Of a stretch of 37,668 nt of DNA, positions 22,035 to 37,426 are shown one piece after another (position 1 is the first letter of the stretch; each line of letters begins with the position of its first letter). This DNA comes from an uncultured Phocaeicola sp. (GTDB lineage Bacteria > Bacteroidota > Bacteroidia > Bacteroidales > Bacteroidaceae): contig CANQSM010000025.1 of NCBI GenBank assembly GCA_947626525.1, positions 1 to 37,668 of the forward strand. Direction: 5' to 3'. A program made the translations under genes and the position numbers. Under the pieces are notes generated by a model. It was not told the origin of the DNA and searched no databases. It saw only the letters and a list, made by a program, of their open reading frames with translations.

Positions 22035-22060
22035 AGTTGGGGAAAGTGAGGATTAAGACT

Positions 22061-23016: not shown

Positions 23017-23033
23017 TTGAGAGGGTGACGGAA

Positions 23034-24253: not shown

Positions 24254-24324
24254 ATGATACAGAAAGTTAAACAGAGAAAAAATTAGAGAAATTAATAGGA
24301 AAAGTATGGAAAGGAGAAGAAAGC

Positions 24325-24846
24325 ATGTTGATACAAGTAGATACGAGACAAAAGAAAAATCATCATAATGAAAAAGATAAATGGTTTTCAGAACATAATA
24401 TAAAAACAATTTCAAGCAAACTACTTGTGGGAGATTATGCAATACCATCAAAAATGGATATTGCGATTGACACAAAAGCTTCCATACAAGAGCTTATAGG
24501 GGATATATGCGGTAAATCCCACGAACGGTTTAGAAACGAACTTATAAGGGCGCAGGAGAGCAACATAAAGCTGATAATACTGACGGAAGATGACGGCGGT
24601 TATTGCGACAGAAAAAAGACCATTTACAACAATCCTGTGACTTGTATCAAAGACTTATTCAGTTGGAAAAATCCAAGGCTATTTATCTTTCAAGGTGGTA
24701 AACAGAAATATCCGAAAGCGACGCGTGGGCAGACCTTGGCAAAGTGCCTTATTACTTTACAGGAAAAATACGGCTGTGAATTTATGTTTACCAAGAAAGC
24801 GGACAGCGGTGCGGAAATTGTGAGATTGCTGAAAGGGAGTGATTAG
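24325..24846 (+). CDS. ERCC4-type structure-specific nuclease
   Basis: The 173-residue protein has the ERCC4/XPF nuclease core: LIQVDTRQKKNHH (acidic metal site), LLVGDYAIPSKMDIAIDTKA (GDY and D-x-K), then SIQELIGDI and RFRNELIRAQ. The E-R-K of classical ERCC4 is replaced by IDTKAS, with Asp and Lys retained. Such phage proteins may cut branched DNA. It could supply the nuclease activity missing next to RecT and the SbcC-like ATPase. GAAAGGAG precedes ATG 24325. Confidence 0.78.
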   Translation: MLIQVDTRQKKNHHNEKDKWFSEHNIKTISSKLLVGDYAIPSKMDIAIDTKASIQELIGDICGKSHERFRNELIRAQESNIKLIILTEDDGGYCDRKKTIYNNPVTCIKDLFSWKNPRLFIFQGGKQKYPKATRGQTLAKCLITLQEKYGCEFMFTKKADSGAEIVRLLKGSD

Positions 24847-25080
24847 GTGTCGATTATGCAGATTGAGAACAACCTTATCTTGGACAAAGGTTCGGAAGCT
24901 TTAAAGAAACAATTTGATAACTACCATAACTGGTGTTGGTATCACGGTTACGGCGATTGTGATGTATGCAGAAAAATATTCCACAGATATTATATTCCAT
25001 TAAGAAAAAGGGAATTGCAAATTAAAAATGGTCTTATAAAACAAGACAACGAAATTGCTCAAAAAGGGAGTGAAGAATAG
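24847..25080 (+). CDS. Small cysteine/histidine phage protein (77 aa)
   Basis: It contains NYHNWCWYHGYGDCDVCRKI with C-x7-C-x2-C and nearby His, a possible metal site. The start is either GTG 24847 or ATG 24856; AAAGGGAG favours the former. Function unknown. Confidence 0.55.
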   Translation: MSIMQIENNLILDKGSEALKKQFDNYHNWCWYHGYGDCDVCRKIFHRYYIPLRKRELQIKNGLIKQDNEIAQKGSEE

Positions 25081-25292
25081 TGAATATTGGTGACAAGGTT
25101 TTTGAGTTAAAGCAGGAAATGGAGAGGCTTGAGGCAGAAAGAATGATTAAGTACGCCGACAAAGAAATTACACGATTGGAATGTGAACTTTCAAAAATAG
25201 AAGAAGAAAAAGCCGAAATTGAGTGTCAAATTGAGATATTTCTACACTGTAAACAGGCAATCAGAGAACTGGGGTTATGTGAAAAGGAGTGA
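25080..25292 (+). CDS. Small coiled-coil protein (70 aa)
   Basis: Almost wholly a charged coiled coil (MERLEAERMIKYADKEITRL, ELSKIEEEKAEIECQIEIFL). The GTG start shares its first base with the preceding stop codon; AAAGGGAG is upstream. Function unknown. Confidence 0.55.
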   Translation: MNIGDKVFELKQEMERLEAERMIKYADKEITRLECELSKIEEEKAEIECQIEIFLHCKQAIRELGLCEKE

Positions 25293-25304
25293 CAATCAAC
25301 GACA

Positions 25305-25511
25305 ATGGTAGAAGTAGTTCGTGAGATACAATACGAAGCGGAAAAGAGAAAGCTTATAAAAATAAGCAATGACATTGATAGTCTTATTGACCTAGCACAC
25401 AATTTATATATGAACACAGAAAACAAAGAAGAAAAGGCTGTTTTGGACAAGAAAATTAAGGCATATTGGGAAATAAAAAATCTTGTGGAAAATATACTGA
25501 TAAAGGAGTAA
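25305..25511 (+). CDS. Small helical protein (68 aa), unknown
   Basis: Charged helical protein beginning MVEVVREIQYEAEKRKLIKI. A weak ribosome binding site lies in the preceding gene's end (AAAAGGAG at about 25284). No family recognised. Confidence 0.5.
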   Translation: MVEVVREIQYEAEKRKLIKISNDIDSLIDLAHNLYMNTENKEEKAVLDKKIKAYWEIKNLVENILIKE

Positions 25512-25517
25512 TGAAGA

Positions 25518-25700
25518 ATGAAAATAATAACAAATAATGAAAGAAATATGATAGCAGAAAGATTAGCCGAATTATGGGAATTAAGCAAAAAATTTAATAT
25601 TGATGATTTCCAAAAATCTACCGAGTGCATTGTTGAAATTGCTGTAATGTTGGATATTCCACAAAATGGAATTTTTAAGGAAAGTGAGGTATCAGAATGA
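25518..25700 (+). CDS. Small helical protein (60 aa), unknown
   Basis: It begins MKIITNNERNMIAERLAELW. AAAGGAG precedes ATG 25518. It ends GIFKESEVSE and overlaps the next gene by 4 bases. No family recognised. Confidence 0.5.
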   Translation: MKIITNNERNMIAERLAELWELSKKFNIDDFQKSTECIVEIAVMLDIPQNGIFKESEVSE

Positions 25701-25966
25701 GAATATATCATTGTGATTTATGTGGAAAAGAGCTTGGCACTTGCTTTGCAGATTTTCCCAAAACATTTTCAAATGAGCTGAAAATTTCTACTTGGAAAGA
25801 AACTCCAAGACAAAGAGAGCAGATACGATGTGCTTATGATTTATGTGATGATTGCGCCAAGCGAATACACAGAGAATTATTAACAATAGTCAATAATTAT
25901 ACTTGGCGTAGGAAAGACAATAAAAGAGCATTTAGTTGGAATAAGGAAAGCGAGGTATCGGATTAA
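25697..25966 (+). CDS. Small zinc-ribbon-like phage protein (89 aa)
   Basis: Two Cys pairs (HCDLCGKELGTC near the start and AYDLCDDCAKRIH) could bind one zinc. AAGTGAGG lies upstream. Possibly a nucleic-acid or protein adaptor; unknown. Confidence 0.6.
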   Translation: MRIYHCDLCGKELGTCFADFPKTFSNELKISTWKETPRQREQIRCAYDLCDDCAKRIHRELLTIVNNYTWRRKDNKRAFSWNKESEVSD

Positions 25967-26280
25967 TGGAAGAAAAACTGAAAGAATTGCAGGAAAAAGG
26001 GGTTATCAGCTTTTCCGAATGGGAACGCATTTCAAATTACCAATCCAAGACAGAGGTTAAGATAAGGAATACAAAAATTGATATGTTTTTAGATAAAGGG
26101 AGCGTGCATTTCCAAATTGGGGATATGAGATTTTTCCGTTTAAAAGAAGTAATAGTAAAAACAGGAGCGGAACTTTTTGGACTAAATTCAGAAGAAGATG
26201 ACGAACTTTATTTAGCTTTTATCAATTACAAAGATGAACCGATTGCTTACATACCATTGGAAGAAAGCGAGGCAGAATAA
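25966..26280 (+). CDS. Phage protein of unknown function (104 aa)
   Basis: It has an N-terminal helix (EEKLKELQEKGVISFSEWER) and a beta-rich remainder (VHFQIGDMRFFRLKEVIVKT). The start overlaps the previous stop by 1 base. No family recognised. Confidence 0.55.
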   Translation: MEEKLKELQEKGVISFSEWERISNYQSKTEVKIRNTKIDMFLDKGSVHFQIGDMRFFRLKEVIVKTGAELFGLNSEEDDELYLAFINYKDEPIAYIPLEESEAE

Positions 26281-26420
26281 TGATTACAAAAGCAGATAGT
26301 CTTTTCTGACTGCACAGAACCGCTTAAAACGGCTTGAAAGAGCATTGAACGATAATTTATAGGCTGAACGGTGAAAACGGCTTAGAAACGATTTTAGAGT
26401 GTTGAGAAAGGAGGAGTATT
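26280..26420 (+). pseudogene. Decayed small gene (NRLKRLERALNDNL-type)
   Basis: ATG 26280 gives only nine codons. In another frame the DNA reads QNRLKRLERALNDNL, stop, AERx, stop, KRLRNDFRVLRKEEYYE, crossing a TAG and a TGA. This looks like a short helical phage protein inactivated by one frameshift and two stop codons. The reading continues into the ribosome binding site of the next gene. Confidence 0.5.
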
Positions 26421-26676
26421 ATGAGCATAAAAAACAAAGACATAATCAATCTTATTCGAGAAAAGGAAAATCGTGTAGATTGCGAAAATTGTAAATATTG
26501 TCAAAAAGCCATTTATGCATATCGCTGATTTTAGAAATATAACAGCTAACCAACTTTTAAGAGAATTAGATTTTGGATATTTTTTCAGGGAGTGTGTTTT
26601 AAAATTTTGGAAGCAAAACACAATTCCACTGGGTTGGATATACCAGCGTATGCGTGAAATTAAAAAAGGAGATTAA
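26421..26676 (+). pseudogene. Small cysteine-containing phage gene with a one-base frameshift
   Basis: The gene starts at ATG 26421 after AAAGGAGGAG and reads MSIKNKDIINLIREKENRVD, then CENCKYCQKAIYAYR and stops at 26526. The DNA continues open in the +1 frame as DFRNITANQLLRELDFGYFF, then RECVLKFWKQN and PLGWIYQRMREIKKGD to 26676. Removing one C near 26523 would rejoin the halves into one protein of about 84 residues (AYADFRN). Either a natural mutation or an assembly error. Confidence 0.65.
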
Positions 26677-26678
26677 AA

Positions 26679-26978
26679 ATGGATATTGAGAAAGCTATAG
26701 AGTGGCAGGAAAAATTTAAAAAAGCGTACAAAAGTATGTCACAGGAAGCAGATGAGGCTTGCGACTTTACAATTAAGGCATTGGAAGAATTAAATCACCT
26801 AAAAAAGTTATATGAAAAGGTTGACCTTGAAAAAATTGTCAAGTTTTCGCAGACAGAAAATATAGATACTTCTATGGTTAATGTAAGTTTTTCATACAAC
26901 AAACATCTAAGCAGAGATGAAGCAATATATCTGTTGGCTGAAAACCTTATAAATATTTTAAATAAAGAAGCGGAGTGA
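26679..26978 (+). CDS. Phage protein of unknown function (99 aa)
   Basis: Charged helical protein (MDIEKAIEWQEKFKKAYKSM, DEACDFTIKALEELNHLKKL) with a helix-rich C-terminus. AAAAGGAG precedes ATG 26679. No recognised family. Confidence 0.55.
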   Translation: MDIEKAIEWQEKFKKAYKSMSQEADEACDFTIKALEELNHLKKLYEKVDLEKIVKFSQTENIDTSMVNVSFSYNKHLSRDEAIYLLAENLINILNKEAE

Positions 26979-26983
26979 TTGAT

Positions 26984-27187
26984 ATGGTTTACCGCGCAAG
27001 CGAATGTTGCGACTGTCAATCCGAGGGTTATCCCTGCATTGGCAAGTTGTGTCACAGGCGGAACGCACTGCACCTGATATGTGACAAATGTAAACGCCCA
27101 AGTGATGAGCTGTACTACGGGCAGGGTAACGCCGAATTGTGCGCTGAATGTGCTTTAGGTGAATTGGAGAGGGTGGAAGTGGAATGA
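26984..27187 (+). CDS. Small zinc-binding phage protein (67 aa)
   Basis: Cys-rich: CCDCQSEGYPCIGKLCHRRN, then HLICDKCKRPSDELYY and LCAECALGEL, giving several CxxC pairs. GCGGAGTG is upstream of ATG 26984. It is a double zinc ribbon found in clostridial phages, probably a protein or nucleic-acid adaptor; role unknown. Confidence 0.65.
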   Translation: MVYRASECCDCQSEGYPCIGKLCHRRNALHLICDKCKRPSDELYYGQGNAELCAECALGELERVEVE

Positions 27188-27405
27188 AGCAATGGGAGAA
27201 AATGTCCAAGTATAAAGAATATCTTAAATACGGTTTTGACAGGAAGCCTAGTACGGAAGAATTATCAGACAAAACAATTATTGAAATGACTAAATCAATG
27301 GATATAGATACACAAAAAATCCTTGACAAATTAGAAGAAATGAGGGAACGAGAGAATGAGTATGACAACAAATTTGATAGAACAATTAAGGGAATATTCT
27401 GCTGA
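27184..27405 (+). CDS. Small helical phage protein (73 aa), unknown
   Basis: It begins MKQWEKMSKYKEYLKYGFDR and has a charged helix (QKILDKLEEMRERENEYDNK). It overlaps the preceding gene by 4 bases and the following one by 50 bases, so the 3' end may not be essential. No recognised family. Confidence 0.5.
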   Translation: MKQWEKMSKYKEYLKYGFDRKPSTEELSDKTIIEMTKSMDIDTQKILDKLEEMRERENEYDNKFDRTIKGIFC

Positions 27406-27745
27406 ACTTGATAAACTGTGTTCACCAAGTGAGAGTTACCTTGTAAAGCGTGCCGCTGACACAATCGAAGAACTGTCTGCAAAAGTCGCACAGCAGAATA
27501 TGGAAAAGTCGAGCCAGTATTACAATGGTGGGTGGATACCAGTTGAAGAAAGATTGCCGACAAGAGGAGAAAAGGTACTGGTATGGTATGAGTATTATAG
27601 ATGCGGCAACTTAAACGGTATGTTTCAGACTTACGGCATAGGATTTTGGAGTGGTGAAAACTGGGGTGGTGATGTATCGGGAGCAAAAGCAAGATGTATC
27701 GCATGGCGACCGTTACCGACAGTTTATGAACCAAAGGAGGATTAA
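27356..27745 (+). CDS. DUF551-domain protein
   Basis: The 129-residue protein has an N-terminal helical part and a C-terminal DUF551 domain: GGWIPVEERLPTRGEKVLVW, then GFWSGENWGGDV and CIAWRPLPTVYEPKED. DUF551 is very common in phage early regions and has no established function. GAGGGAACGAGAG precedes ATG 27356, which is placed inside the preceding gene. Confidence 0.82.
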   Translation: MSMTTNLIEQLREYSAELDKLCSPSESYLVKRAADTIEELSAKVAQQNMEKSSQYYNGGWIPVEERLPTRGEKVLVWYEYYRCGNLNGMFQTYGIGFWSGENWGGDVSGAKARCIAWRPLPTVYEPKED

Positions 27746-27747
27746 AA

Positions 27748-27984
27748 ATGCGACCAGTTGATGCTGATTTTCTTATAGAATTTTTATCCGATTTACCCAC
27801 AATTGACGCAGAACCTGTGCGACATGGCAAATGGATAAAATCCGAAATACCTTGTGAAGAATATGTATGTTCAGAATGTGGAGGGGCTTGTTGGTATTAT
27901 GATGCAAATAAAAATGTATCAAAAAGTAAATACTGCCCGAATTGTGGGTCTGTTATGAGAGGTGATGATTATGGCAAAAAATAA
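27748..27984 (+). CDS. Phage zinc-ribbon protein (78 aa)
   Basis: It begins MRPVDADFLIEFLSDLPTID, then AEPVRHGKWIKSE and two zinc-binding pairs (CSECGGACWYY and YCPNCGSVM). The sequence RPVDAD...PT-DAEPVRHGKW followed by a ribbon is a recurring phage protein type. Compared with usual members it is shortened between the N-terminal helix and the DAEPV motif. AAAGGAGG precedes ATG 27748. Function unknown. Confidence 0.75.
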   Translation: MRPVDADFLIEFLSDLPTIDAEPVRHGKWIKSEIPCEEYVCSECGGACWYYDANKNVSKSKYCPNCGSVMRGDDYGKK

Positions 27985-28060
27985 ATATGGTGAACTTAGA
28001 AATTTAGCTTTTAAAAAATGCGAACAGCTCATAATAAAAGCTTGGAACAGCCGAAAATAA
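27971..28060 (+). CDS. Very small basic protein (29 aa)
   Basis: Starts at ATG 27971 inside the end of the preceding gene and reads MAKNKYGELRNLAFKKCEQL, then IIKAWNSRK. GAGAGGTGATG lies upstream. It could be a remnant of a larger gene; weak support. Confidence 0.4.
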   Translation: MAKNKYGELRNLAFKKCEQLIIKAWNSRK

Positions 28061-28112
28061 AAATTAAAGCCCGAACTTGATAGGAGATGAGAAATTTGCG
28101 GATTAAAAATAT

Positions 28113-28131
28113 GGGCGGTTATTCGCCGCCC
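28113..28131 (-). terminator. Terminator of the RHH gene
   Basis: GGGCGG / CCGCCC with a 7-nt loop sits over the stop codon. On the minus strand it is followed by ATATTTTTAAT, a proper T-run. This ends the leftward RHH transcript. Confidence 0.75.
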
Positions 28132-28280
28132 TCAAGATATTTTTGCAAAATTGTTATGACTTGCATATTAAGACTTCTGTTTTCTTTCTTGGCAATCACT
28201 TTGATTTGTTCAATTAGAGATTGTGGGAAAGAAATATTTACCCTTATTTTGGGTTCGTCAGTCTTTAAATTTTTTGGCAA
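28119..28280 (-). CDS. Ribbon-helix-helix (Arc/MetJ-type) regulator, 53 aa
   Basis: The minus-strand gene starts at TTG 28280 with AAGGAGGTGG ahead of it. It encodes KIRVNISFPQSLIEQIKVIA (ribbon strand and first helix), then NRSLNMQVITILQKYLEGGE, the classic Arc-type RHH with the strand R-V-N-I-S-F contacting DNA. Its promoter is divergent from the HNH gene at 28416, with shared GTGTAA-type repeats between them, so it probably represses both. It is one of very few leftward genes in the early region. It stands in a plus-strand frame that is open but has no support. Confidence 0.8.
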   Translation of the reverse strand: MPKNLKTDEPKIRVNISFPQSLIEQIKVIAKKENRSLNMQVITILQKYLEGGE

Positions 28281-28306
28281 TAAAACCACCTCCTTGATTG
28301 TTTATT

Positions 28307-28336
28307 ATTGTACCACATAACACCAAAATGTGTCAA
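28307..28336 (-). promoter_or_regulatory. Promoter for the RHH gene
   Basis: Minus strand: -35 TTGACA (28331-28336), 18 bp, -10 TACAAT (28307-28312). The start lies about 30 bases before the TTG start codon region. Confidence 0.75.
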
Positions 28337-28338
28337 TA

Positions 28339-28392
28339 TGGTGTAAAAACTATTTACATAATTACACTATTATGGTATAATTATGGTGTAAA
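28339..28392 (+). promoter_or_regulatory. Promoter for the HNH gene with GTGTAA-type operators
   Basis: Plus strand: -35 TTTACA (28353-28358), 17 bp, -10 TATAAT (28376-28381). TGGTGTAA occurs at about 28339 and about 28385, and the inverted TTACAC at about 28362, so three candidate RHH operator arms flank or overlap the promoter. Confidence 0.7.
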
Positions 28393-28415
28393 AATATAAA
28401 AACGGAGGTAGTGTT

Positions 28416-28745
28416 ATGTCTTTGGGATTAAATACAAGAGCAAGGGTTTTTCAAAAAACTGGTGGAAAATGTTTTTATTGTGGTTGTGATTTAGATTTTA
28501 AAACATACCACATTGACCATTTTATTCCTAAATCTAATAACGGTAAGGGTGGAGATAATTTAGTGCCGTCTTGTTCAGATTGCAATTTGTATAAAGGAAG
28601 ACTATCAGTAGATGAATTTCGAGAGAAAATTGAAAACTCAATTTATTCTTCGATTAAAGGAAGAATGATAAACAAGTATTTCCATTTAAACAACTCTAAA
28701 ATAAAGTTTTATTTTGAGGAGGCTGATAATATTGGCGATTTATAG
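28416..28745 (+). CDS. HNH endonuclease (zinc-linked, Cas9/McrA-like core)
   Basis: The 109-residue protein has the compact HNH core: KCFYCGCDLDFKTYHIDHFI, then PKSNNGKGGDNLVPSCSDCN. Cys pairs FYCGC and CSDCN chelate the structural zinc and H-I-D-H supplies the catalytic His. It is a stand-alone nuclease, perhaps a homing or nicking enzyme acting at packaging or replication sites, or a selfish gene. It has its own promoter and divergent RHH repressor, unlike its neighbours, so it may have been acquired as a module. ACGGAGG precedes ATG 28416. Its end overlaps the next gene's TTG start. Confidence 0.85.
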   Translation: MSLGLNTRARVFQKTGGKCFYCGCDLDFKTYHIDHFIPKSNNGKGGDNLVPSCSDCNLYKGRLSVDEFREKIENSIYSSIKGRMINKYFHLNNSKIKFYFEEADNIGDL

Positions 28746-29568
28746 AAATATACATCTTACTTTTTGGAGCGATACCAAAATTGCAGATGAGTTTACGCCA
28801 GAAGACAAGTATTTTTATTTGTATCTTTTAACAAACCCACATACTAATTTGTGCGGTTGCTATGAGATAAGTGTCAAACAAATTTCAAGGGAAATAGGAT
28901 ATACAGAAGACGCAGTATGCGGACTAATGAAAAGGTTTACAGAAGTGCATAATATCATAAGGTACGATTTAAAAAACAAAGAGATTTTGCTTTTAAATTG
29001 GAGTAAATATAACTGGACTAAATCGTCAAAATTTACAACTGCTTTAGAAAAAGAAATGCAATCAATTAAAACGAAAGAATTTAAAGAATACTTAATTGGA
29101 AAATTATACGGTATAGATACGGTATCTTCTATTGACGAATACGGTATAGATACAACTGATACTGTATCTGATACTGATACTGTTAATAAAGAAATAATAA
29201 AGAGAATTATAAATTATTTAAATAACAAATGTGGAACGAATTATAGATATAATACGAAAAATACAGTTGAGCATATAAACGCAAGACTTTCAGAGCAATA
29301 TACAGAGGAAGATTTTTATACTGTTATTGATAAAAAATGTGGTGAGTGGATAGGAACGGAATTTGAAAAGTTTTTAAGACCTGATACTTTATTCACGCCA
29401 AAACATTTTGAGGCATACCTAAATCAAAAAATAACAAAAAACACTTACCAAAACAAAACAGCCGAGATGTTACAAGACAGCTACAAAATGCTTGCGGAAT
29501 GGGCAGAAGAAGCGGAGGGGAATAACAATGACACAAAAAGAATTTATGGTGATTGCGGCGGCGATTAA
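28732..29568 (+). CDS. Phage replisome organiser (replication initiator) with Phg_2220_C-like C-terminus
   Basis: The 278-residue protein has an N-terminal winged-helix region (YRNIHLTFWSDTKIADEFTP, YFYLYLLTNPHTNLCGCYEI, VKQISREIGYTEDAV), a repetitive linker (residues about 125-150), and a conserved phage C-terminal domain (INYLNNKCGTNYRYNT, INARLSEQYTEEDFYTVIDK, FTPKHFEAYLNQK). Such proteins bind the origin and recruit the helicase via its loader. The start is TTG 28732 (MAIYRNIH), with GAGGAGG 10 bases upstream. The linker DNA has GATAC iteron-like repeats, a likely origin. It overlaps the loader gene. Confidence 0.85.
   Translation: MAIYRNIHLTFWSDTKIADEFTPEDKYFYLYLLTNPHTNLCGCYEISVKQISREIGYTEDAVCGLMKRFTEVHNIIRYDLKNKEILLLNWSKYNWTKSSKFTTALEKEMQSIKTKEFKEYLIGKLYGIDTVSSIDEYGIDTTDTVSDTDTVNKEIIKRIINYLNNKCGTNYRYNTKNTVEHINARLSEQYTEEDFYTVIDKKCGEWIGTEFEKFLRPDTLFTPKHFEAYLNQKITKNTYQNKTAEMLQDSYKMLAEWAEEAEGNNNDTKRIYGDCGGD
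29107..29180. repeat. Iteron-like GATAC repeats, candidate replication origin
   Basis: TACGGTATAGATAC occurs at 29107-29120 and 29140-29153. Perfect odd palindromes GATAC-G-GTATC (29116-29126) and GATAC-T-GTATC (29158-29168) and a direct pair GATACTGATAC (29170-29180) follow. In total five GATAC and two GTATC in about 65 bp, in the linker of the initiator gene, the usual place for the origin in lambda-O-like systems. Confidence 0.6.
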
Positions 29569-30013
29569 AACTTATTATCCGAAAGAGAATATTTTACCTA
29601 CAAAAGAGGCGGTATCGCTATGGTACGACTGTCTGAACGACTTGGAATTTGCAAAGGCACAGGCGGCTTTAAAGAATTACACCAAAAGCAACAGCTATCC
29701 TCCTGCCATAGCCGACATACGCAACGAATACGGAAAAATCATTGACAAAGAGGCAAAAGCTAAAGCAGAACTGCGCAGACTGTACGATATAACCGTTTCA
29801 TATTACCCTTGCGCCAACAGGGAAAAAGATGTTGAAAGTACATACAAGAGCCTTATAAGCAAAATAAAACCGCAGGACAGATTAGAAATGGCAAAGACTA
29901 TACTTCAAAAAGTGCTTGATTTTGTCAAGGAATGGGAAAAAGGCACTGAAAACGACATAATCACTCTTACGGACTTTCTGAAAGGACTTGATGTAAATGA
30001 GTTATGCCATTGA
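29528..30013 (+). CDS. Helicase loader (G40P loader/inhibitor-like)
   Basis: The 161-residue protein is of the 'loader and inhibitor of G40P' type: MTQKEFMVIAAAIKTYYPKE, then PTKEAVSLWYDCLNDLEFAK and YTKSNSYPPAIADIR. These proteins load the DnaB-type helicase on the origin. ATG 29528 lies inside the end of the organiser gene after GGAGGGG. Its stop overlaps the DnaB gene start, so the three replication genes are translationally coupled. Confidence 0.83.
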   Translation: MTQKEFMVIAAAIKTYYPKENILPTKEAVSLWYDCLNDLEFAKAQAALKNYTKSNSYPPAIADIRNEYGKIIDKEAKAKAELRRLYDITVSYYPCANREKDVESTYKSLISKIKPQDRLEMAKTILQKVLDFVKEWEKGTENDIITLTDFLKGLDVNELCH

Positions 30014-31301
30014 GCAGAATGTAATAGGCGCACTTGCCATTGAGGGTGACTGTATTGAGAAGATATACAACATACTCACGCCTGAAATGTTCAGTTCAGA
30101 GGTCTTAGGCAGAATTTACTATGAGTATCTACAGGCATATGACAAAGGGGAAGAAACGAGCAGTGCAATCATAACTGAAAAGCTTGTAAATGACGGCTTT
30201 CCCTTAGAAATGATTAGCAGCGAGTTTAAAGACTGTATAATGGGCGCGGTTACAAGCGCAGGAGTTGAGAGATACGCCGAGATTGTCCGAAAAGAGCATA
30301 AGGCAAAAATGCTTACAAACATTCTCAACACAACACAGGTCAATTCAGATAATGTTGAGGAGCAGATAAGCAACCTTATAAGCGCGGCAGAGGCATTAAA
30401 AGACGGCACTAGCGGTACATCAAAGACCTTGACGGAAATTGTAAGGGAAAACAAGGATAAGTATTTCAAGGAAGATGAACAGCCGAGAATAAATCTAGGT
30501 TTTCCCAAGCTTGACGAAATGCTGTGCGGATTAGAGGGCGGTGATGTTGTAGTGATAAGTGCAAGACCAGCGGTAGGAAAATCGGCATTTGCGGCGCAGA
30601 TTACCTCATATATGGCAAGCGCAGGTAAAAAGGTGGGCTTTTACAACTTAGAGATGAAAGAAAAACAGATATACGAGAGGTTTTTGTCAATGCAAAGCGG
30701 AATGGGGCTTACAAGAATACGCCGAGCGGTAAGGTTTGTGGGAGATGAAGAACAAAGGTTTGACAAGGCAAATGCGGAACTGGAGAAAAAGGACAATATC
30801 ATAATCACGACAGGCAGTAAGACGGTAAGCGAGATAAGGGCAGAGAGCCGACATATGGGCTATGATGTTATAGTCATTGACTATATGCAACTGTTAAAGC
30901 CTGATACGACATACAAGGGAAACAGATATGCGGAAGTCGGGGCTATCAGCAAGGCGGTCAAGGCGTTAGCTATGGAGCTGAATATCCCGATAATAGAGCT
31001 TACGCAGTTAAACAGGGTATCAATGGGGCGCGACAGCAAAGAACCGACAATGGCAGAGATACGAGAGTCGGGCGATATTGAACAGGACGCAAGCGTGATT
31101 ATACTGATATGGAACACGAGCGAAAACGATACATCTCAAAAAGGCGTAAAGGTTGAAAAACAAAGGCAGGGCAAGACGGGGAAAATAAAAATGCGTTTCA
31201 ACGGCGATATGATGAAATTTGAAGAATTGCCCGATAGTGATAACGGCACACAGGCAAACTGGACTTCATCAGACGAAGAAGAAACGCCGTTTGATAACTG
31301 A
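29997..31301 (+). CDS. Replicative DnaB-like helicase
   Basis: The 434-residue helicase has an N-terminal DnaB domain (about 1-105) and a RecA-like core. Walker A is VISARPAVGKSAFAAQ (around residue 187), Walker B is YDVIVIDYMQLL, then IELTQLNRVSMGR and IEQDASVIILIW (motif H4), and KQRQGKTGKIKMRFNG with the arginine finger region. It unwinds phage DNA at the fork and requires the upstream loader. Full length, no defects. ATG 29997 lies inside the loader gene. Confidence 0.95.
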   Translation: MSYAIEQNVIGALAIEGDCIEKIYNILTPEMFSSEVLGRIYYEYLQAYDKGEETSSAIITEKLVNDGFPLEMISSEFKDCIMGAVTSAGVERYAEIVRKEHKAKMLTNILNTTQVNSDNVEEQISNLISAAEALKDGTSGTSKTLTEIVRENKDKYFKEDEQPRINLGFPKLDEMLCGLEGGDVVVISARPAVGKSAFAAQITSYMASAGKKVGFYNLEMKEKQIYERFLSMQSGMGLTRIRRAVRFVGDEEQRFDKANAELEKKDNIIITTGSKTVSEIRAESRHMGYDVIVIDYMQLLKPDTTYKGNRYAEVGAISKAVKALAMELNIPIIELTQLNRVSMGRDSKEPTMAEIRESGDIEQDASVIILIWNTSENDTSQKGVKVEKQRQGKTGKIKMRFNGDMMKFEELPDSDNGTQANWTSSDEEETPFDN

Positions 31302-31315
31302 TTGGAGGCTACATA

Positions 31316-31552
31316 ATGGCAGAGCAAAAGTTTGTTAAGGGTTCGGAAGAATGGCAGATGTTCAATGATTACTGGAAATTATGCCAACATTACTGGAAGC
31401 CCGAAGAAAAAGATGAGTATTGGGAAAGCCTTATAGCTGACATTGATAATTTTTGCAGGAAGTATGGAAACGAGGTTTTCCCAAAGAAAATTAGCCTTGC
31501 ATTTGTTGAAACGCTAGAGGCGAGGTCAAAAGAAATGAGAAAGGGGCAATGA
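31316..31552 (+). CDS. Phage protein of unknown function (78 aa)
   Basis: It contains VKGSEEWQMFNDYWKLCQHY, then WEPE-like (WKPEEKDEYWESLIADID), a Trp- and Glu-rich helical protein often found next to phage DnaB helicases. TTGGAGG precedes ATG 31316. No function known. Confidence 0.65.
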   Translation: MAEQKFVKGSEEWQMFNDYWKLCQHYWKPEEKDEYWESLIADIDNFCRKYGNEVFPKKISLAFVETLEARSKEMRKGQ

Positions 31553-31555
31553 CAT

Positions 31556-31720
31556 ATGGATTTGTTGGAATTTTACGGCACAAACAAGGATTTTAGAGAG
31601 TATGTTGACAAGTATTGCGTAAAGCACAAATTAACAGTCGGGCAGGCGTTAGAGCATAAGCTGATTGGCAATGTGGCAGAGCAGTATTACGAATTATCTT
31701 TAAGGAGGCAAGGGGAATGA
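31556..31720 (+). CDS. Small phage protein (54 aa), unknown
   Basis: The protein begins MDLLEFYGTNKDFREYVDKY, then CVKHKLTVGQALEHKLIGNV. The layout L-L-E-F-Y...F-x-E-Y-V-D-K-Y-C is a recurrent short phage protein beside the replication genes. AAGGGGC lies upstream; it overlaps the next gene by 4 bases. Confidence 0.6.
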   Translation: MDLLEFYGTNKDFREYVDKYCVKHKLTVGQALEHKLIGNVAEQYYELSLRRQGE

Positions 31721-31977
31721 ACAAGAATAAAGCTTTTATTAATCAGTGGAAAAGGATTGAGCAGCAGGCAAGCCTGATAACGCCAAAAGTCTACGCGAGT
31801 GTTGCACTTGCACTGCACAGGAAATGCGGGTGGGGATATCAGCGGATTAACGACCTGTTTGTTGTGTCACAGCACATTTGGAATGAGTGCGTAGACACAG
31901 GCGCGGATATGATAAAAATGTGTGAGGCAGAAACGGGGATTACGGTTGCAAATGAGGTTAATAGAAAGGAGATTTAA
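31717..31977 (+). CDS. Phage protein of unknown function (86 aa)
   Basis: It contains FINQWKRIEQQASLITPKVY, then LHRKCGWGYQRINDLFVVSQ and IWNECVDTGADMIKMCE. A helical protein of a type seen in many phages (G-W-G-x-x-R-I...W-x-E-C). AAGGAGG is upstream. Function unknown. Confidence 0.65.
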   Translation: MNKNKAFINQWKRIEQQASLITPKVYASVALALHRKCGWGYQRINDLFVVSQHIWNECVDTGADMIKMCEAETGITVANEVNRKEI

Positions 31978-31979
31978 AA

Positions 31980-32747
31980 ATGGGCGATAAAACCAAAATA
32001 GATTGGTGTGACAGCACTTGGAACCCAGTTACAGGTTGCTATCACGATTGCCAATATTGCTATGCGAGGAATATAGCACATAGATTTTCGGGCGGTGGTG
32101 AGAATTGGACTGATGATAAAATCATTGTACTTGACGAAAGAAAATATGATGAATTTGAAGAAAATAGGGCTTTGGCATATCCATATGGCTTTAAACCGAC
32201 ATTACATCGCTATAAGCTTGACGAATATGCCACTAAGAAAGGCAGAAACATCTTTGTATGTTCAATGGCGGATTTGTTTGGAAATTGGGTGCCTGATAGT
32301 TGGCTTGATGAAGTGTTTGAAGCTTGCGAGAAAGCACCACAGCATAATTATTTGTTTTTGACGAAAAACCCCAAACGCTACATAGATTATGATGTTTCTT
32401 GCGATAGAAATAAGTGGTACGGAACAAGCATTTGTAAAAATACTGATATGAAAAAGTGTGAACATCTTCCCTTGAGGGCGAATAAATTTATCAGTATTGA
32501 GCCTATTTTAGAATGTTTGGATATTATAAGCAGTCCGATTATTAATTGGGTTGATTGGGTAATTGTCGGTGCAGAAACAGGCAGACGCAAAGACAAGGTT
32601 ATTCCCCAAAGAAAATGGATTGAGGATATTGTCAATGAGTGTAAGGCAAATGAAAAACCTGTATTTATGAAGTCAAGCCTTGCGGACATTTGGGGTGAAC
32701 CATTGATACAGAAATTTCCGAGAGAATTAAAACATAAGGAGGATTAA
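31980..32747 (+). CDS. DUF5131 (Gp37-like) radical-SAM-like protein
   Basis: The 255-residue protein begins TKIDWCDSTWNPVTGCYHDC, QYCYARNIAHRF, which is the DUF5131/phage Gp37 signature with a C-x3-C-x2-C cluster resembling a radical-SAM iron-sulfur site. Later blocks FVCSMADLFGNWVPDSWLDE and YLFLTKNPKRY, FISIEPILEC, DWVIVGAETGRRK also match. Such proteins are common in phages; their reaction is not known. AAAGGAG precedes ATG 31980. Full length. Confidence 0.88.
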   Translation: MGDKTKIDWCDSTWNPVTGCYHDCQYCYARNIAHRFSGGGENWTDDKIIVLDERKYDEFEENRALAYPYGFKPTLHRYKLDEYATKKGRNIFVCSMADLFGNWVPDSWLDEVFEACEKAPQHNYLFLTKNPKRYIDYDVSCDRNKWYGTSICKNTDMKKCEHLPLRANKFISIEPILECLDIISSPIINWVDWVIVGAETGRRKDKVIPQRKWIEDIVNECKANEKPVFMKSSLADIWGEPLIQKFPRELKHKED

Positions 32748-32750
32748 GGT

Positions 32751-33179
32751 ATGGATAGGCTAACGACAAGGATAGACGGCATTGCATACGGCAAAAGCGG
32801 TATCAAACGACTATCGAAAGAATATCATAGGGGAATATTTGAGTGTACGGCATTGGTAGAGCGACTAGCAGAGTACGAGGACGCAGAAGAACAGGGATTG
32901 CTTGTGCGTCTGCCTTGCAAATTTGGGAGTGAAGTATGGTATATAGATGACGGATACGGAGCATATAAAAAAAGAGTAGTAAAAGGTGTTGCAAATAACA
33001 CTTTAAGTTTTCACAATCAAAAACATACATTAGATATATCGTGGGACAAACCTATAATGGGGTATTTTTCATACATAAGATGCCCTATGCCGATTAGTGA
33101 TTTTGGAAAAACCATATTTCTAACTCGTGAGGAAGCCGAGCAAAAGCTGAAGGAAATGGAGGGAACGCAGAATGTTTGA
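32751..33179 (+). CDS. Phage protein of unknown function (142 aa)
   Basis: It has the recurrent phage start MDRLTTRIDGIAYGKSG, then ALVERLAEYEDAEEQGLLVR and LPCKFGSEVWYID, followed by a beta-rich region and FLTREEAEQKLKEM. Members of this type are common in clostridial phages and remain uncharacterised. AAGGAGG precedes ATG 32751; its end overlaps the next gene by 8 bases. Confidence 0.7.
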   Translation: MDRLTTRIDGIAYGKSGIKRLSKEYHRGIFECTALVERLAEYEDAEEQGLLVRLPCKFGSEVWYIDDGYGAYKKRVVKGVANNTLSFHNQKHTLDISWDKPIMGYFSYIRCPMPISDFGKTIFLTREEAEQKLKEMEGTQNV

Positions 33180-33336
33180 ATTAACGCCGATTAACATTAT
33201 ACATCTTGTTTCTTCTTTCTGTATGGCTTTTTTCCTCGGATTGTCCTATAAGACAAATGAAAGAGTTAGAAGTATTGCAAGAATAATATGGTTCATATCT
33301 GTATGCATTGTTTTTATATGTGCATTGGTTAGGTAG
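33172..33336 (+). CDS. Small membrane protein (54 aa)
   Basis: Two hydrophobic helices: INIIHLVSSFCMAFFLGLSY and IIWFISVCIVFICALV, with a short basic loop. GGAGGG is upstream of ATG 33172. No family known. Confidence 0.6.
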   Translation: MFELTPINIIHLVSSFCMAFFLGLSYKTNERVRSIARIIWFISVCIVFICALVR

Positions 33337-33348
33337 TGGAGGCTGATT

Positions 33349-33555
33349 ATGCAGAGGGAAACGATTGATAAGGCAAATGAAATTTTAAACAGGATTGCGC
33401 AGGAGAGAAAATATTTAGAAGAATTAGAGAAAATCGAAAAAGCTACAGTCCCAGTTTGTATTGAAATATGGACAGACAAGGGCGAGAGAGAAGAAATAAG
33501 GCAGATGAAGTTGAGAAAAATTCAAAGACTTGAAAAGGAATTGGAGGAATTGTGA
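33349..33555 (+). CDS. Small coiled-coil protein (68 aa)
   Basis: Charged helices (MQRETIDKANEILNRIAQER, and IRQMKLRKIQRLEKELEEL) flank a short strand (VPVCIEIW). GGAGG precedes ATG 33349. Unknown. Confidence 0.55.
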   Translation: MQRETIDKANEILNRIAQERKYLEELEKIEKATVPVCIEIWTDKGEREEIRQMKLRKIQRLEKELEEL

Positions 33556-33728
33556 TGACAAACGCAGACAAAATTAGAAATATGTCAGATGAGGAATTGG
33601 CAGAGTTTTTATATGATTTATCTTCACATTGTTATGAGTGTGGAGATTTCAACGGTTGCGGTTGCTATTACGGCAACAAAGAATGTCAAAATTTTACGGA
33701 ATGGCTACAGCAGGAGGTAAAACAATGA
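33555..33728 (+). CDS. Small cysteine-rich phage protein (57 aa)
   Basis: It contains TNADKIRNMSDEELAEFLYD, then SSHCYECGDFNGCGCYYGNK and a final Cys, five cysteines likely coordinating zinc. The MTNADKIR-MSDEELA start is a widespread small phage protein type. TTGGAGG lies upstream; the start shares a base with the previous stop. Confidence 0.7.
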   Translation: MTNADKIRNMSDEELAEFLYDLSSHCYECGDFNGCGCYYGNKECQNFTEWLQQEVKQ

Positions 33729-34105
33729 AAAAGGAAGATTTTAAAGTTGGTCAAACAGTATGGATATATCTTATTGGCGACGCCGCGAGAGGCAAGAATA
33801 CAGATGAAGAACGGATTGAGGAATGGGAAGTTTACTCCATTGGCAGGAAGTACATACAGGTAAAAAAGAAAAATTGGAGTTTTAGTAAAATAAAATTTGA
33901 TATGACAAATAATTTTAGACAGTGGAATAATGGTTATTCGCCAGACTATGAATTATACCCCACTAAAGAAGAACTATTAAAAAGTCTTTGGAAAAGAATG
34001 GTTAAACGTGAAATACAAACGTCTATGTACACATCAAAAATACTTAATAAACTAAATGATGAAGAATTGAAAACAATACACAACATCTTAAAAAAGCATA
34101 TGTAG
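33725..34105 (+). CDS. Phage protein of unknown function (126 aa)
   Basis: It contains DFKVGQTVWIYLIGDAARGK, then EWEVYSIGRKYIQVKKKNW and YELYPTKEELLKSLWKR, an SH3-like beta barrel followed by a helical tail. This FKVGQTVW...V-x-x-I-G-R-K-Y-I pattern is common in small phage proteins. ATG 33725 is chosen because the upstream frame belongs to the previous gene; AGGAGG lies 8 bases before. Confidence 0.68.
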   Translation: MKKEDFKVGQTVWIYLIGDAARGKNTDEERIEEWEVYSIGRKYIQVKKKNWSFSKIKFDMTNNFRQWNNGYSPDYELYPTKEELLKSLWKRMVKREIQTSMYTSKILNKLNDEELKTIHNILKKHM

Positions 34106-34119
34106 GAGGCGAGCCAAAG

Positions 34120-34533
34120 TTGACAGCAGAAAAATCTAAAGACTGTAAATATCCCGACTGTGAGCATTGCGGATTTGACGATTGCGTTATGGAACAAAAT
34201 GACATTCACTCAATGCTCAAACGCAGACGGTGGAGGGCAAACCCGACGGCATATCGGCAAAAGCAGAGGGACTACAGGATAAAGATAAAGGCAAATCTGC
34301 CACATTGTGACGAATGTGCAAATTGCGTACTTGTGAAGAAAGAAAAAGATGACGGTTTTAGACGGCTTTGCTTAGCGGAAATGCGCCTGATTGAGCAGAA
34401 AGTTTCAAACTGTCCCCAATGGTGCAGGAAGCGCACGCCGAGCAAAGACTATCTGAAACGGCGCGAAAATATACTAAGGCAGAAGAAAGAAAAATATAGG
34501 GAAAGAGAGGCAAAGGTAAATGAGGCTTATTGA
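34120..34533 (+). CDS. Cysteine-rich phage protein (137 aa), TTG start
   Basis: Three Cys blocks: CKYPDCEHCGFDDCVM, then CDECANCVLVKK and CLAEM...CPQWCRKR. The C-terminus is a long basic helix (KDYLKRRENILRQKKEKYRE). Start TTG 34120 follows TAGGAGG. Metal-binding is likely; function unknown. Confidence 0.65.
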   Translation: MTAEKSKDCKYPDCEHCGFDDCVMEQNDIHSMLKRRRWRANPTAYRQKQRDYRIKIKANLPHCDECANCVLVKKEKDDGFRRLCLAEMRLIEQKVSNCPQWCRKRTPSKDYLKRRENILRQKKEKYREREAKVNEAY

Positions 34534-34699
34534 CGCGGACAAGCTGATTGAGGATTTAAAAGACTTTACCACATCGGCAGATGACGGAGTTGTTGAAAGC
34601 CCTATGGCACTGTCGATAGTCAGTTATTGCAAGGGCAGATTTATTGAAAAGGTAAATGCGCAGTCAACAGTCGGCTTGGGAATGGAGGTAGTAGAATGA
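34520..34699 (+). CDS. Small phage protein (59 aa), IDADKL-type
   Basis: It begins MRLIDADKLIEDLKDFTTSA and continues with a helical part. The MRLIDADKL start is shared with a large class of small phage proteins that usually have a C-terminal zinc ribbon; here it is short and lacks the ribbon. It overlaps the preceding gene by 14 bases. Confidence 0.6.
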   Translation: MRLIDADKLIEDLKDFTTSADDGVVESPMALSIVSYCKGRFIEKVNAQSTVGLGMEVVE

Positions 34700-34755
34700 A
34701 CAGGGAAATATTGTTTAGGGCAAAATTTAGACGATTTTTAAAGTGGGGTGATTGA
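34696..34755 (+). pseudogene. Remnant with YopX-like start (19 codons)
   Basis: The start ATG 34696 reads MNREILFRAKFRRFLKWGD and stops. The first eight residues match the typical beginning of YopX-type phage proteins, but the rest of that domain is absent. Probably a truncated relic; it may be merely a leader for the next gene. Confidence 0.35.
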
Positions 34756-34757
34756 TT

Positions 34758-35051
34758 ATGGAGGATAAACTTATTAGAAACGAGCAAGAAGCCATAGAAG
34801 CAATTCAGTCAAATTATCCGACAAGCGGATATTATATGTTGAGAGAGGCGTTAGATATGGCTGTATCTGCATTAGAAAAACAGATACCCCAAATTCCAAA
34901 CTATGAGGGCGACGGCTATTCAGAGGGCAAATTAGTCTATGATACTTGGATATGCCCGAACTGTTGGGAAGAATACGAGGTAAGCTATCATAATTATGAT
35001 TATTGTCCAAAATGTGGACAGCGTATTCAACACGCGGATTGGGAAAGGTAA
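34758..35051 (+). CDS. Zinc-ribbon phage protein (97 aa)
   Basis: The N-terminal helical half is EEAIEAIQS-like (NEQEAIEAIQSNYPTSGYYM, LDMAVSALEKQ), and a C-terminal zinc ribbon follows (CPNCWEEYEV...YCPKCGQRI). Helix-plus-ribbon proteins of this type are frequent in phages of Clostridia. ATG 34758 has GGGGTGATTGATT upstream. Function unknown. Confidence 0.72.
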   Translation: MEDKLIRNEQEAIEAIQSNYPTSGYYMLREALDMAVSALEKQIPQIPNYEGDGYSEGKLVYDTWICPNCWEEYEVSYHNYDYCPKCGQRIQHADWER

Positions 35052-35055
35052 AAAA

Positions 35056-35139
35056 ATGAATAAGTATCAAATTTGCGGAACAATGATAATATTTTTAATC
35101 GCCTTTGTCGGACAGATGTTCTGCTCTGATGAGGACTGA
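35056..35139 (+). CDS. Very small membrane peptide (27 aa)
   Basis: It begins MNKYQICGTMIIFLIAFVGQ, then MFCSDED: a single hydrophobic helix. AAAGGTAAAA is upstream. Weak support. Confidence 0.4.
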   Translation: MNKYQICGTMIIFLIAFVGQMFCSDED

Positions 35140-35158
35140 TTAAAGGAAAGGTGGGCTT

Positions 35159-35494
35159 ATGAGGTATAATTTTAACAAGCTTAGTAAGCCCGAACTCGAT
35201 TTTTTATTAGATAATTGTAATTTTACGAATGATGAGAGCATATTATTAAATATGGCAAACAGAGAATATACAAACATTCAGATTGCGGAAAAGTTGAATG
35301 TGACGGTAAGCACAATAGAGAAAAAGAAAAAGGTGGTATATGGAAAAATAAAGGATTTTATGGAGGTAATCGAGGATATGACTACAATTTATGTTAATGG
35401 CGAGCGTGTCACGAAAGAGCAGTTAAAGGAAATGGAAATACGCATAGAAAGCGTTAAACGCATACTAGCGGAGAAATTGACTGAAAAGAAGTAA
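35159..35494 (+). CDS. Sigma-70 region-4-like / HTH regulator, possible late-gene activator
   Basis: The 111-residue protein has an HTH segment (DESILLNMANREYTNIQIAE, KLNVTVSTIEKKKKVVYGKI) similar to sigma region 4 and LuxR-type HTH, followed by a helical tail (VTKEQLKEMEIRIESVKRIL). Proteins of this type at the end of the early operon often activate late genes (ArpU-like), which is inference. AAAGGTGG precedes ATG 35159. The promoter of the serine recombinase lies within its last codons. Confidence 0.68.
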   Translation: MRYNFNKLSKPELDFLLDNCNFTNDESILLNMANREYTNIQIAEKLNVTVSTIEKKKKVVYGKIKDFMEVIEDMTTIYVNGERVTKEQLKEMEIRIESVKRILAEKLTEKK

Positions 35495-35528
35495 TGTGTT
35501 AGAATGGCTAGTGTAAAATCTAGCCATT
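35477..35528 (+). promoter_or_regulatory. Recombinase promoter with overlapping palindrome
   Basis: TTGACT (35477-35482), 17 bp, TAGAAT (35500-35505) preceded by TGT (extended -10). The palindrome AATGGCTA (35503-35510) / TAGCCATT (35521-35528) begins inside the -10 and covers the start site. It could be an operator or a terminator of the upstream operon; TTCTTTC follows it. This gives the recombinase independent expression. Confidence 0.6.
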
Positions 35529-35557
35529 TCTTTCACCAAAAGAAAGGAGTGGCACTG

Positions 35558-36901
35558 ATGAAAAAAATGAATGTAGCATATCTTCGAGTTTCCACCGAGG
35601 CGCAGACCGAGAAATACGGTCTTGATATGCAGAAGCAAAAGATAATGGACTATTGCGAGCGAAACAAGGTTGTGATAGATAAATGGTATGTAGACGGAGG
35701 CTACAGCGGAAGCAAGCTTGACCGTCCGCAAATCCAAGAGCTGTTAAATGACGCAGAGAACGGTCTTATAGCGAGGGTATTTATCTATAAGCTTGACAGG
35801 GTGAGCCGAGATGTCATAGACACGCTTACATTGCTTTACAGGGTGCTTAATAAATACGGCATTGAGGTAATCTCAATGACCGAGGACTTGAAATTTGACA
35901 ATCCTATGGACAAGGTTGTTATCGGCGTAAATGCTCTAGTGGGACAGTATGAACGCGAAACAATAAGAATGAGAATGTCGGCAGGTATGCTTGAAAGAGT
36001 TAAGCGCGGTTATTGGATGGGCGGCGGCAGAATACCATACGGCTACTACTACGACAGGAACGACGGCATTTTACACCCTAAAGAAGATGAGGCGAAGAAT
36101 GTCCGCGAGGCATACAAGATGTACATACAGGGTTATTCCTGCGATAGAATTTCAAAAATCCTTGGATTTAAGGGCGAGCGGATAGTAATTCAGATTTTAA
36201 AGCGCAAGTCGAACTTAGGCTATATTGAGTTTAAGGGCAACACATACAAGGGACTGCACGAGCCTATTGTTGATGAAAAAACCTTTTATGAGGCGCAGGA
36301 ATGTATGGAAAAACGCCACACTAATACATATGTGGCAAATGACCATATACTTAGCGGATTATGCTACTGCGGCGTGTGCGGCGCACGAATGCGCTATCAA
36401 AAGTGGGGTAAATATCACAAGATTATATGTTACTCACAGCAGAAGAGCAAGGAATATATGGTAAAAAATCCCAATTGTGATAACATAAAGGCATTTGCTG
36501 ACAAGGTGGAAAGCGAAGTAGAAGACAGTTTCAAAAATTTTATAATAAGAGTGGATAAGGCACAGAAAGCGTACAGCAATGTTGATAGCATCGAGGCATC
36601 TATCAAAAAAACAAATGCCAAGATAAAAAAGTTTTACACGCTGTATGCTGAAAACGAGAGTGACAACCTCTTGGAGCTGATAAAGGAAGAAGAAGAAAAG
36701 GTTATAGAATTAAAGAAACAGCTTGACTACGAAAAAAAAGCACATAATAATTCAAAAGCTGAAAAGCTTAATCAGATTAAAAGGGTATCTGACGTATGGA
36801 ACGAACTTACAGACATTCAAAAAAACAAAATTCTCAAGGATTGCGTCGAAAAGATTGTTATTACGGGAAATGACATAGAGATACGCTTTGTTACATTTTA
36901 G
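35558..36901 (+). CDS. Large serine recombinase (prophage integrase/excisionase)
   Basis: The 447-residue serine recombinase has a resolvase-type catalytic domain with nucleophile S12 (NVAYLRVSTEAQ), DRPQIQELLNDAENG, and IYKLDRVSRD. It continues with a recombinase domain (GGGRIPYGYYYD, ...SNLGYIEFKGNTYKG), a zinc-ribbon domain (CYCGVCGARMRYQKWGKY, HKIICY), and a coiled-coil region (KKQLDYEKKAHNNSKAEKLN). It would integrate the phage between attP and attB and, with a directionality factor, excise it. It ends 28 bp before sigG coding sequence resumes. ATG 35558 follows AAAGGAG. It is relatively compact for the family, similar to SpoIVCA of skin. Confidence 0.95.
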   Translation: MKKMNVAYLRVSTEAQTEKYGLDMQKQKIMDYCERNKVVIDKWYVDGGYSGSKLDRPQIQELLNDAENGLIARVFIYKLDRVSRDVIDTLTLLYRVLNKYGIEVISMTEDLKFDNPMDKVVIGVNALVGQYERETIRMRMSAGMLERVKRGYWMGGGRIPYGYYYDRNDGILHPKEDEAKNVREAYKMYIQGYSCDRISKILGFKGERIVIQILKRKSNLGYIEFKGNTYKGLHEPIVDEKTFYEAQECMEKRHTNTYVANDHILSGLCYCGVCGARMRYQKWGKYHKIICYSQQKSKEYMVKNPNCDNIKAFADKVESEVEDSFKNFIIRVDKAQKAYSNVDSIEASIKKTNAKIKKFYTLYAENESDNLLELIKEEEEKVIELKKQLDYEKKAHNNSKAEKLNQIKRVSDVWNELTDIQKNKILKDCVEKIVITGNDIEIRFVTF

Positions 36902-36928
36902 TCTGATTTTTCCCAAGCTATAATCACT

Positions 36929-36942
36929 CCTATGATCATAGG
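36929..36942. other. Prophage/host junction (attR), palindromic core CCTATGATCATAGG
   Basis: The perfect 14-bp palindrome CCTATGATCATAGG encodes P-M-I-I-G of SigG. Host SigG homology is convincing from here rightward (PMIIGEIRRFL). To the left the sequence (F-S-Q-A-I-I-T) departs from the conserved FSTYAV, so it is the phage arm. The exact crossover dinucleotide cannot be placed without attL. Confidence 0.7.
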
Positions 36943-37426
36943 AGAGATCAGACGCTTCCTACGCGACTCAAGCAACCCCATACGTGTCAGCCGTTCACTG
37001 AAAGATACGGCGTACAAGGCGATTTATGCCAAGGAAAACCTCACAAAGAAAAATTTAAGGGAACCGACGATAATGGAAATATCAGAGGAGATAGGCATAT
37101 CAAAAGAAGATATAGTATACGCGCTTGACGCCATACAAAACCCTATGAGCCTGTATGAACCTGTATACACGGAAGGCGGCGATACTTTGTATGTGATGGA
37201 TCAGATAAGCGATAAGAAATGCAGGGAGGAGAACTGGGTCGAGAATATTTCACTGAGCGAAGCTATGAAACGCCTCGACGAGAGAGAGAATGAAATCATC
37301 ACTTTAAGATTTTTTGAGGGAAAGACACAGATGGAAGTGGCGGAATATATAGGAATTTCACAGGCGCAGGTGTCGCGTCTTGAAAAAAATGCGCTTCATA
37401 CCATGAAAAAGTATCTTATGTTCTAA
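36932..37426 (+). pseudogene. sigG: 3' part of sigG (forespore sigma factor G), separated from its 5' part by the prophage
   Basis: The last 164 residues of SigG are present and intact: MIIGEIRRFLRDSSNPIRVS, RSLKDTAYKAI, EPTIMEISEEIGISKEDIVY, ALDAIQNPMSLYEPVYTEGG, DTLYVMDQISD, ITLRFFEGKTQMEVAEYIGI, SQAQVSRLEKNALHTMKKYL. IRVSRSL and GGD-x-x-x-VMDQISD separate SigG from SigF. SigG is about 260 residues; roughly the first 95, including regions 1.2 and most of 2, are missing here and should lie at the far left of the prophage. It is not a decayed gene: excision would rebuild it. Start 36932 is just the first Met and has no ribosome binding site. Confidence 0.93.

Follow-up and report, generated by a model that had tools for sequence, protein, structure and literature searches.

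A probable temperate-phage attachment site within the sporulation gene sigG and a related integrase clade found at split sigma genes

The window studied here, i.e., the entire contig C25 (37668 bp) of assembly G000, very likely carries the attR of a temperate phage within sigG and represents a clade of integrases that repeatedly splits this gene (once sigF), including a phage-free form with inverted gene halves. The features of the window are collected in Table 1.

Table 1. Features of the window (positions refer to C25).
Feature	Position	Strand	Remarks
Temperate phage genome, right-hand part (prophage body)	1..36931	+	PHROGs matches; left end beyond contig
Endolysin	2138-3070		PHROGs
SbcC-like protein	11723-13645		PHROGs
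Replisome organizer	28714-29568		PHROGs
DnaB-like helicase	29997-31301		PHROGs
Small ORF directly upstream of integrase	35159..35494	+	111 aa; 62% identical to the ORF at the same place in Dulem virus 39
Large serine integrase	35558..36901	+	ORF of 447 aa; Pfam domains; 69% identity to the sigG-adjoining integrase of G316
attR phage-side arm	36902..36931	+	between integrase stop and sigG codon 97; break at CC-N/ATG in all displayed 3'-side relatives
sigG 3' part, codon 97 to stop, open	36932..37426	+	starts with ATG; 164 aa
Bacterial flank, gene start truncated by contig end	37508..37668	+	

The preliminary description of this DNA had reported that SigG starts abruptly at PMIIGEIRR directly after a large serine recombinase and stays open to its stop, which we could confirm. 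The gap between the integrase stop and the sigG part is 30 nt, the codon preceding the ATG at 36932 encodes P (the frame there reads TPMIIGEIRR), and the SigG part corresponds to positions 90-253 of the NCBIfam model spore_sigG (E 3.6e-74). The integrase shows the Pfam domains Resolvase, Recombinase and Zn_ribbon_recom; PF00239, PF07508 and PF13408 are above cut-off in the integrases P0001 and P0004, i.e., both have the domain set of large serine integrases.

It had also been stated that homologous SigG proteins have about 95 more residues upstream. This agrees with the closest locus to the window SigG among the best 80 named loci (L054, uncultured Lachnospiraceae; 98% protein identity), whose unbroken sigG of 260 codons has 96 residues upstream of the matching part, ending in FSTYAVP. 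The DNA alignment between window and L054 starts at 36928, shortly ahead of codon 97. In all of the best 80 named sigG loci, FSTYAVP runs directly into the 3' part, i.e., the gene is uninterrupted at this point. Within the bacterial flank, positions 37418-37665 are 85% identical to positions 15641-15887 of L054, which are located about 5 kb past its sigG. From reading its sequence, we take the truncated gene of the flank to resemble a chemotaxis receptor. The window shows the 3' side of the split only, since C25 starts within the phage such that the left junction and the sigG 5' half are absent from the contig.

With regard to the host, a profile search of G000 yielded neither a second SigG piece nor a 5' half, and G000 is probably not the host. 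No SigG-grade match was found in 40 relatives of G000 (best 127 bits vs. 250 bits for the window fragment), and the best SigG protein identities elsewhere in G000 and its relatives are 22-31%. On contig C26 of G000, we find a sigma factor adjoining Kdo-synthesis genes, which we take to be a Bacteroidota-type RpoD. Given this RpoD and the lack of SigG-grade matches in G000 and its relatives, C25 most likely stems from a Lachnospiraceae genome and is probably a mis-binned prophage end inside a Bacteroidota-looking bin.

The phage body was annotated by a PHROGs scan of 10 window proteins. In addition, a comparison with 36.5 of the 59.8 kb of Dulem virus 39, whose phage record is complete and circular, gave matches for 13 window proteins at 30-83% identity. 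Short proteins of similar pattern to the 111-aa ORF precede most of the related integrases, and we consider the ORF a candidate regulator or directionality factor. Pfam provides no match for two of these small upstream proteins and none above cut-off for that of the window; PHROGs gives no match for the two tested, which include the window's.

Some further observations concern the phage itself. At the contig start, about 500 nt are enclosed by a 20-nt inverted repeat (90%; 59-78 and 578-597), next to a phage-type tyrosine recombinase (625-1626). This may be a tail-fibre segment that the phage can invert, and the contig break at the left end could be due to it. Furthermore, a single methyltransferase profile (phrog_116) is covered in different parts by the consecutive ORFs 19942-20835 and 20929-21738; one gene spans both in Dulem virus 39, such that the window copy looks broken in two. 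Finally, 17079-18170 matches phosphoadenosine phosphosulfate reductase (phrog_424), with a 62% identical counterpart in Dulem virus 39.

The split recurs in other phages. In three near-identical viral contigs (L134-L136), sigG sets in at the same codon behind an integrase of 37% identity. In viral contig L161, an integrase in opposite orientation comes after sigG codons 1-96. In the human-gut phage record MT839977, an integrase is followed by sigG from about residue 93, where the exact junction is not displayed by the motif search.

We surveyed 397 genomes from the family of G042 (a Roseburia bin) for P0001-like integrases (E≤1e-60, at most 4 candidates scored per genome). Such an integrase is present in 8/397 genomes, 7 of which have a split sigG and one a split sigF, another forespore sigma gene. 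In the latter genome (G074; L230, L231), whose sigG is intact, sigF is split after STYAVP, i.e., at the codon homologous to the sigG break; its parts are located on two contigs, and a related integrase adjoins the sigF 3' half. By hand count, sigG is full-length in about 245 of the 397 genomes; the best match is partial in 19, while 124 have weaker matches only and 9 have none. Both sigG halves, broken at the codon 96/97 site, were found in 9 of the 19 partial-match genomes. We left the other 10 out of the split count: contig ends truncate the match in G195, G258, G406 and G194, G288 has a 5' piece only (at a contig end), the gap in G294 is a run of N, and G090, G218, G275 and G276 show no clean sigG (with internal stops in G275).

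The complete case is G316, where the sigG halves (C9:196164-196448 and 241277-241774) enclose a 44.8-kb prophage. Its integrase is located next to the sigG 3' part, and the DNA between both halves encodes major head, head-tail adaptor and tape-measure proteins. In G303, a mini-element of about 2.5 kb is found instead, which consists of an integrase, a small ORF and a gene with a BMC domain. This microcompartment-shell-type gene (L211 3647-4360) adjoins the integrase inside sigG. In both genomes, the two halves are open and flank a recombinase-carrying element, as known for intervening elements. The earlier proposal that a prophage occupies sigG by site-specific integration is thus supported by complete elements in relatives.

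Two of the 9 genomes with both halves (G198, G324) show no P0001-like integrase. In G324, the sigG break coincides with the ends of two contigs (L225, L226), which overlap by 11 nt and carry no foreign DNA there; this could be due to chance or to a mixture of joined and split forms in the sample. We consider this split doubtful, because the site is simply where these contigs stop.

At class level, 391 genomes were surveyed, 13 of which have a P0004-like integrase (E≤1e-70). Nine of these 13 integrases show at least 46% identity, and a sigG half adjoins in G825 and G460; within the examined stretches of 3-18 kb, no sigG half is found near the other 7/9 (G498, G526, G625, G557, G502, G813 and G729). 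The related integrases of G625 and G557 (L302, L303) share a chromosomal neighbour with no sigG nearby; perhaps these two genomes represent a second resident integrase lineage.

Next, we consider the attachment sites. The break is located at CC-N/ATG, after FSTYAVP, and affects the same sigG codon in all displayed junctions; the 5' side of G317 departs from the ATG pattern. When the outer arms of the split genes are set side by side, they form near-palindromes centred on the break in 11/13 genomes, the exceptions being G316 (weak) and G324 (no arms). Among 15 phage/viral loci, 4 (L316, L317, L318, L325) show an intact attP palindrome adjoining the integrase when tested in a fixed register with a threshold of 13/20 or better, which is passed by 2/2763 CCNATG sites of control loci. 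In Dulem virus 39, the integrase (64% identity to that of the window) is followed by GTGCCAATGATTATA, which resembles the sigG site and sits between the arms TTTCCCCTAA and TTAGGGGAAA. This locus fails the fixed-register palindrome test, and its attP assignment is based on the core and a 10-nt inverted repeat. After the integrases of six viral contigs (L322, L323, L324, L327, L328, L329), the sigG core is absent and other sequence is found, i.e., not every related integrase targets sigG. Taken by their sites, the sigG-associated integrases thus show a specific attB and an attP with symmetric arms, as is typical for large serine integrases.

Joining the sigG halves results in a SigG of 258-259 residues in 12/13 genomes of all kinds. 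Along with the sigG core in the attP of free relatives, this is in accordance with the earlier suggestion that removal of the element can restore the sigG frame.

A tree of 49 integrases places the sigG-associated members within one set of 36 rows (98/98), which also includes members without known site. TP901-1, a Listeria phage, BL3 and phiFC1 fall outside this set. The sigG label requires several changes on this tree.

The main rival to a link with sporulation is ordinary lysogeny. Here, sigG is merely a conserved landing site, lysogens sporulate only when induction or chance has removed the phage, and the host gains nothing from the arrangement. We consider this a strong contender, although with slightly less than an even chance. 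The window, G316 and the viral records fit it equally well, and the target is a strongly conserved motif. Furthermore, a simple scan for promoter-like sites upstream of 11 integrases detected only two SigA-like sites (window and L135) and no sites of SigF/G, SigE/K, SigH or Spo0A type. What ordinary lysogeny leaves unexplained is a phage-free lineage, in which halves, arms and integrase are retained together and the halves show purifying selection.

This resident lineage comprises 8 genomes with no phage left, all of which have a split sigG and none a joined form. Genus searches added G445 and G446 (3/3 genomes of that genus) as well as G449, G450 and G451, where G446 provides the 5' half only; G217 is the sole genome examined of its genus. 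In the genus of G372, sigF- and sigG-grade matches (E≤1e-38) are present in 4/11 genomes, all 4 of them split, while the other 7 are without both. The lineage integrase is found in 8/8 split genomes vs. 0/7 of the congeners without sigF and sigG, and the eight integrases form one clade (98/93). A small ORF of the common pattern precedes the integrase in 6/8 genomes and was not recognised in G445 and G446.

The halves are inverted in all three genomes in which their arrangement can be resolved. They are located on one contig 26-30 kb apart in G358 and G217 and 41 kb apart in G450 (i.e., 26-41 kb overall). We thus find inverted sites on one chromosome together with a recombinase in the genome, as in inversion switches. 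The integrase is encoded elsewhere on the chromosome and has two neighbouring genes in common in G358, G217 and G372. We read the DNA between the halves of G358 and G217 as bacterial (a cell-wall and division cluster with, presumably, ftsZ, spoIIGA and sigE), and this segment is partly syntenic with G303. Misassembly as source of the inverted halves in G358 and G217 was rejected, because G450 repeats the layout and the neighbouring genes are common across the lineage. For most outer neighbours of the split halves, a check of ancestral gene order found no match among the best 80 named loci. We also note a gene with RelA_SpoT domain inside the inverted segment of G358 next to the 3' half (L241 6625-7422); homologs are located close to this half in the lineage's other genomes.

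The arms adjoining the break are kept, with a mean pairwise identity of 0.79 vs. 0.31 and 0.30 just outside, and in seven genomes 15-18 of the 20 positions of the 20-nt att arms are paired. For close pairs, we computed dN values of 0-0.03 and dS values of 0.3-0.8 on both halves, substitution patterns that show purifying selection on either half.

These values also bear on decay, i.e., the explanation that lineages on their way to losing sporulation carry sigG as a split pseudogene with relic halves. Many family genomes are indeed without SigG-grade match (about 124/397 with weak matches only, 9 with none), sigF and sigG are missing in 7/11 congeners of G372, and the 3' half of G449 carries an in-frame stop (1 of 7 3' halves). 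However, the joined halves are open over the full 258-259 residues in all but one of 13 genomes, replacement changes are rare compared to silent ones, and the integrase is lost where sigF and sigG are lost, which makes decay improbable.

Finally, that the integrase was falsely joined to sigG by assembly or binning is hardly credible: while the window contig is in the bin of another phylum, the same break is found in independent assemblies and records, and both halves are on a single contig in G316, G303, G358, G217 and G450.

We return to phage integration at a specific sigG site as the preferred reading and describe how it could operate. The large serine integrase would insert the phage at attB between sigG codons 96 and 97, i.e., within the motif FSTYAVP|MIIGEIRR. 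The lysogen would then hold two sigG halves and would produce no sigma-G while the phage stays. Precise excision by the integrase and a directionality factor, the putative role of the small upstream protein, would restore sigG. Junctions, recurrence, open halves, att arms and co-retention are read directly from the sequences; that recombination at these sites occurs is what we infer. There is about an even chance that excision of the window phage is tied to sporulation.

The integrase clade takes three forms: full prophages, a mini-element, and a phage-free resident recombinase with inverted att sites. For the latter, recombination between the inverted sites would cause an inversion that rebuilds sigG and joins the arms into attP, which the integrase alone would reverse. 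Both inversion between inverted sites and its reversal by the integrase alone follow from general serine-integrase chemistry. We thus consider it likely, judged from sequence comparison, that a phage integrase was domesticated in the resident lineage, such that integrase and small partner would rebuild sigG by inverting a segment of 26-41 kb during sporulation, to be flipped back by the integrase alone after germination.

The preliminary description had raised the objection that excision in the forespore removes the prophage from the spore lineage. This objection is real, and the inverted layout of the related lineage suggests a way round it, because inversion loses no DNA from the future spore. 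The mini-element of G303, on the other hand, would be lost from the spore if excised in the forespore without re-entry.

How does this compare to known systems? The skin element in sigK (B. subtilis; C. difficile with CD1231 and CD1234) likewise splits a sporulation sigma gene by means of a large serine recombinase. It differs in that sigK acts in the terminal mother cell, while the sigG split here is a forespore gene. A changed mother-cell genome is discarded. According to excerpts of the respective paper, a separate directionality factor controls excision of the C. difficile skin (PMC5025042). For SPbeta in spsM (SprA/SprB), the consulted parts of two papers describe a large serine integrase that puts the phage into a spore gene, which is rebuilt by excision (PMC4191935, PMC8270828). 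The placement is thus shared with the window; in the SPbeta case, however, mother-cell-confined excision spares the spore genome and the target is an envelope gene rather than a sigma factor. The same source, as excerpted, names sigma-G as forespore factor (PMC4191935), i.e., the window's target lies outside the mother-cell genes hit by skin- and SPbeta-type elements.

Partial texts of further papers provide three more comparisons. The gin element in gerE (B. cereus ATCC10987) is a non-phage element with serine recombinases that splits a spore regulator (PMC5595907); it is comparable to the G303 mini-element but comprises 28.6 kb and three recombinase genes vs. about 2.5 kb and one in G303. 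The yin element is a prophage-like insertion within the spore-associated gene yabG of C. botulinum (PMC10747680) and thus concerns another gene than the sigG split. In the RecV flagellar switch, a recombinase reversibly inverts chromosomal DNA and thereby switches genes (PMC7446863). As excerpted, this switch is located upstream of the flgB operon and is phase-variable, whereas in the resident lineage a coding sequence would be rebuilt from integrase-type att sites that are 26-41 kb apart. No described sigG-interrupting element had been known to the preliminary description, and our literature search, covering open-access PubMed Central papers in the parts accessible to it, likewise found no interruption of sigG or spoIIIG. 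The window may represent the intervening-element kind with sigG as target, while the inversion layout may deserve to be classed separately.

The consulted part of the SPbeta work (PMC4191935) deals with the reconstitution of mother-cell genes. Splitting of sigG would shift the rearrangement into the future spore cell. This would leave three possibilities: the excised phage survives and re-enters, the phage is cured during spore formation, or the rearrangement requires a different topology, of which the layout with inverted halves in the resident lineage is an example. If true, a bacterial germline would here assemble a developmental gene in a programmed manner through inversion, and sporulation genes of gut genomes that are counted as broken or absent may in fact work.
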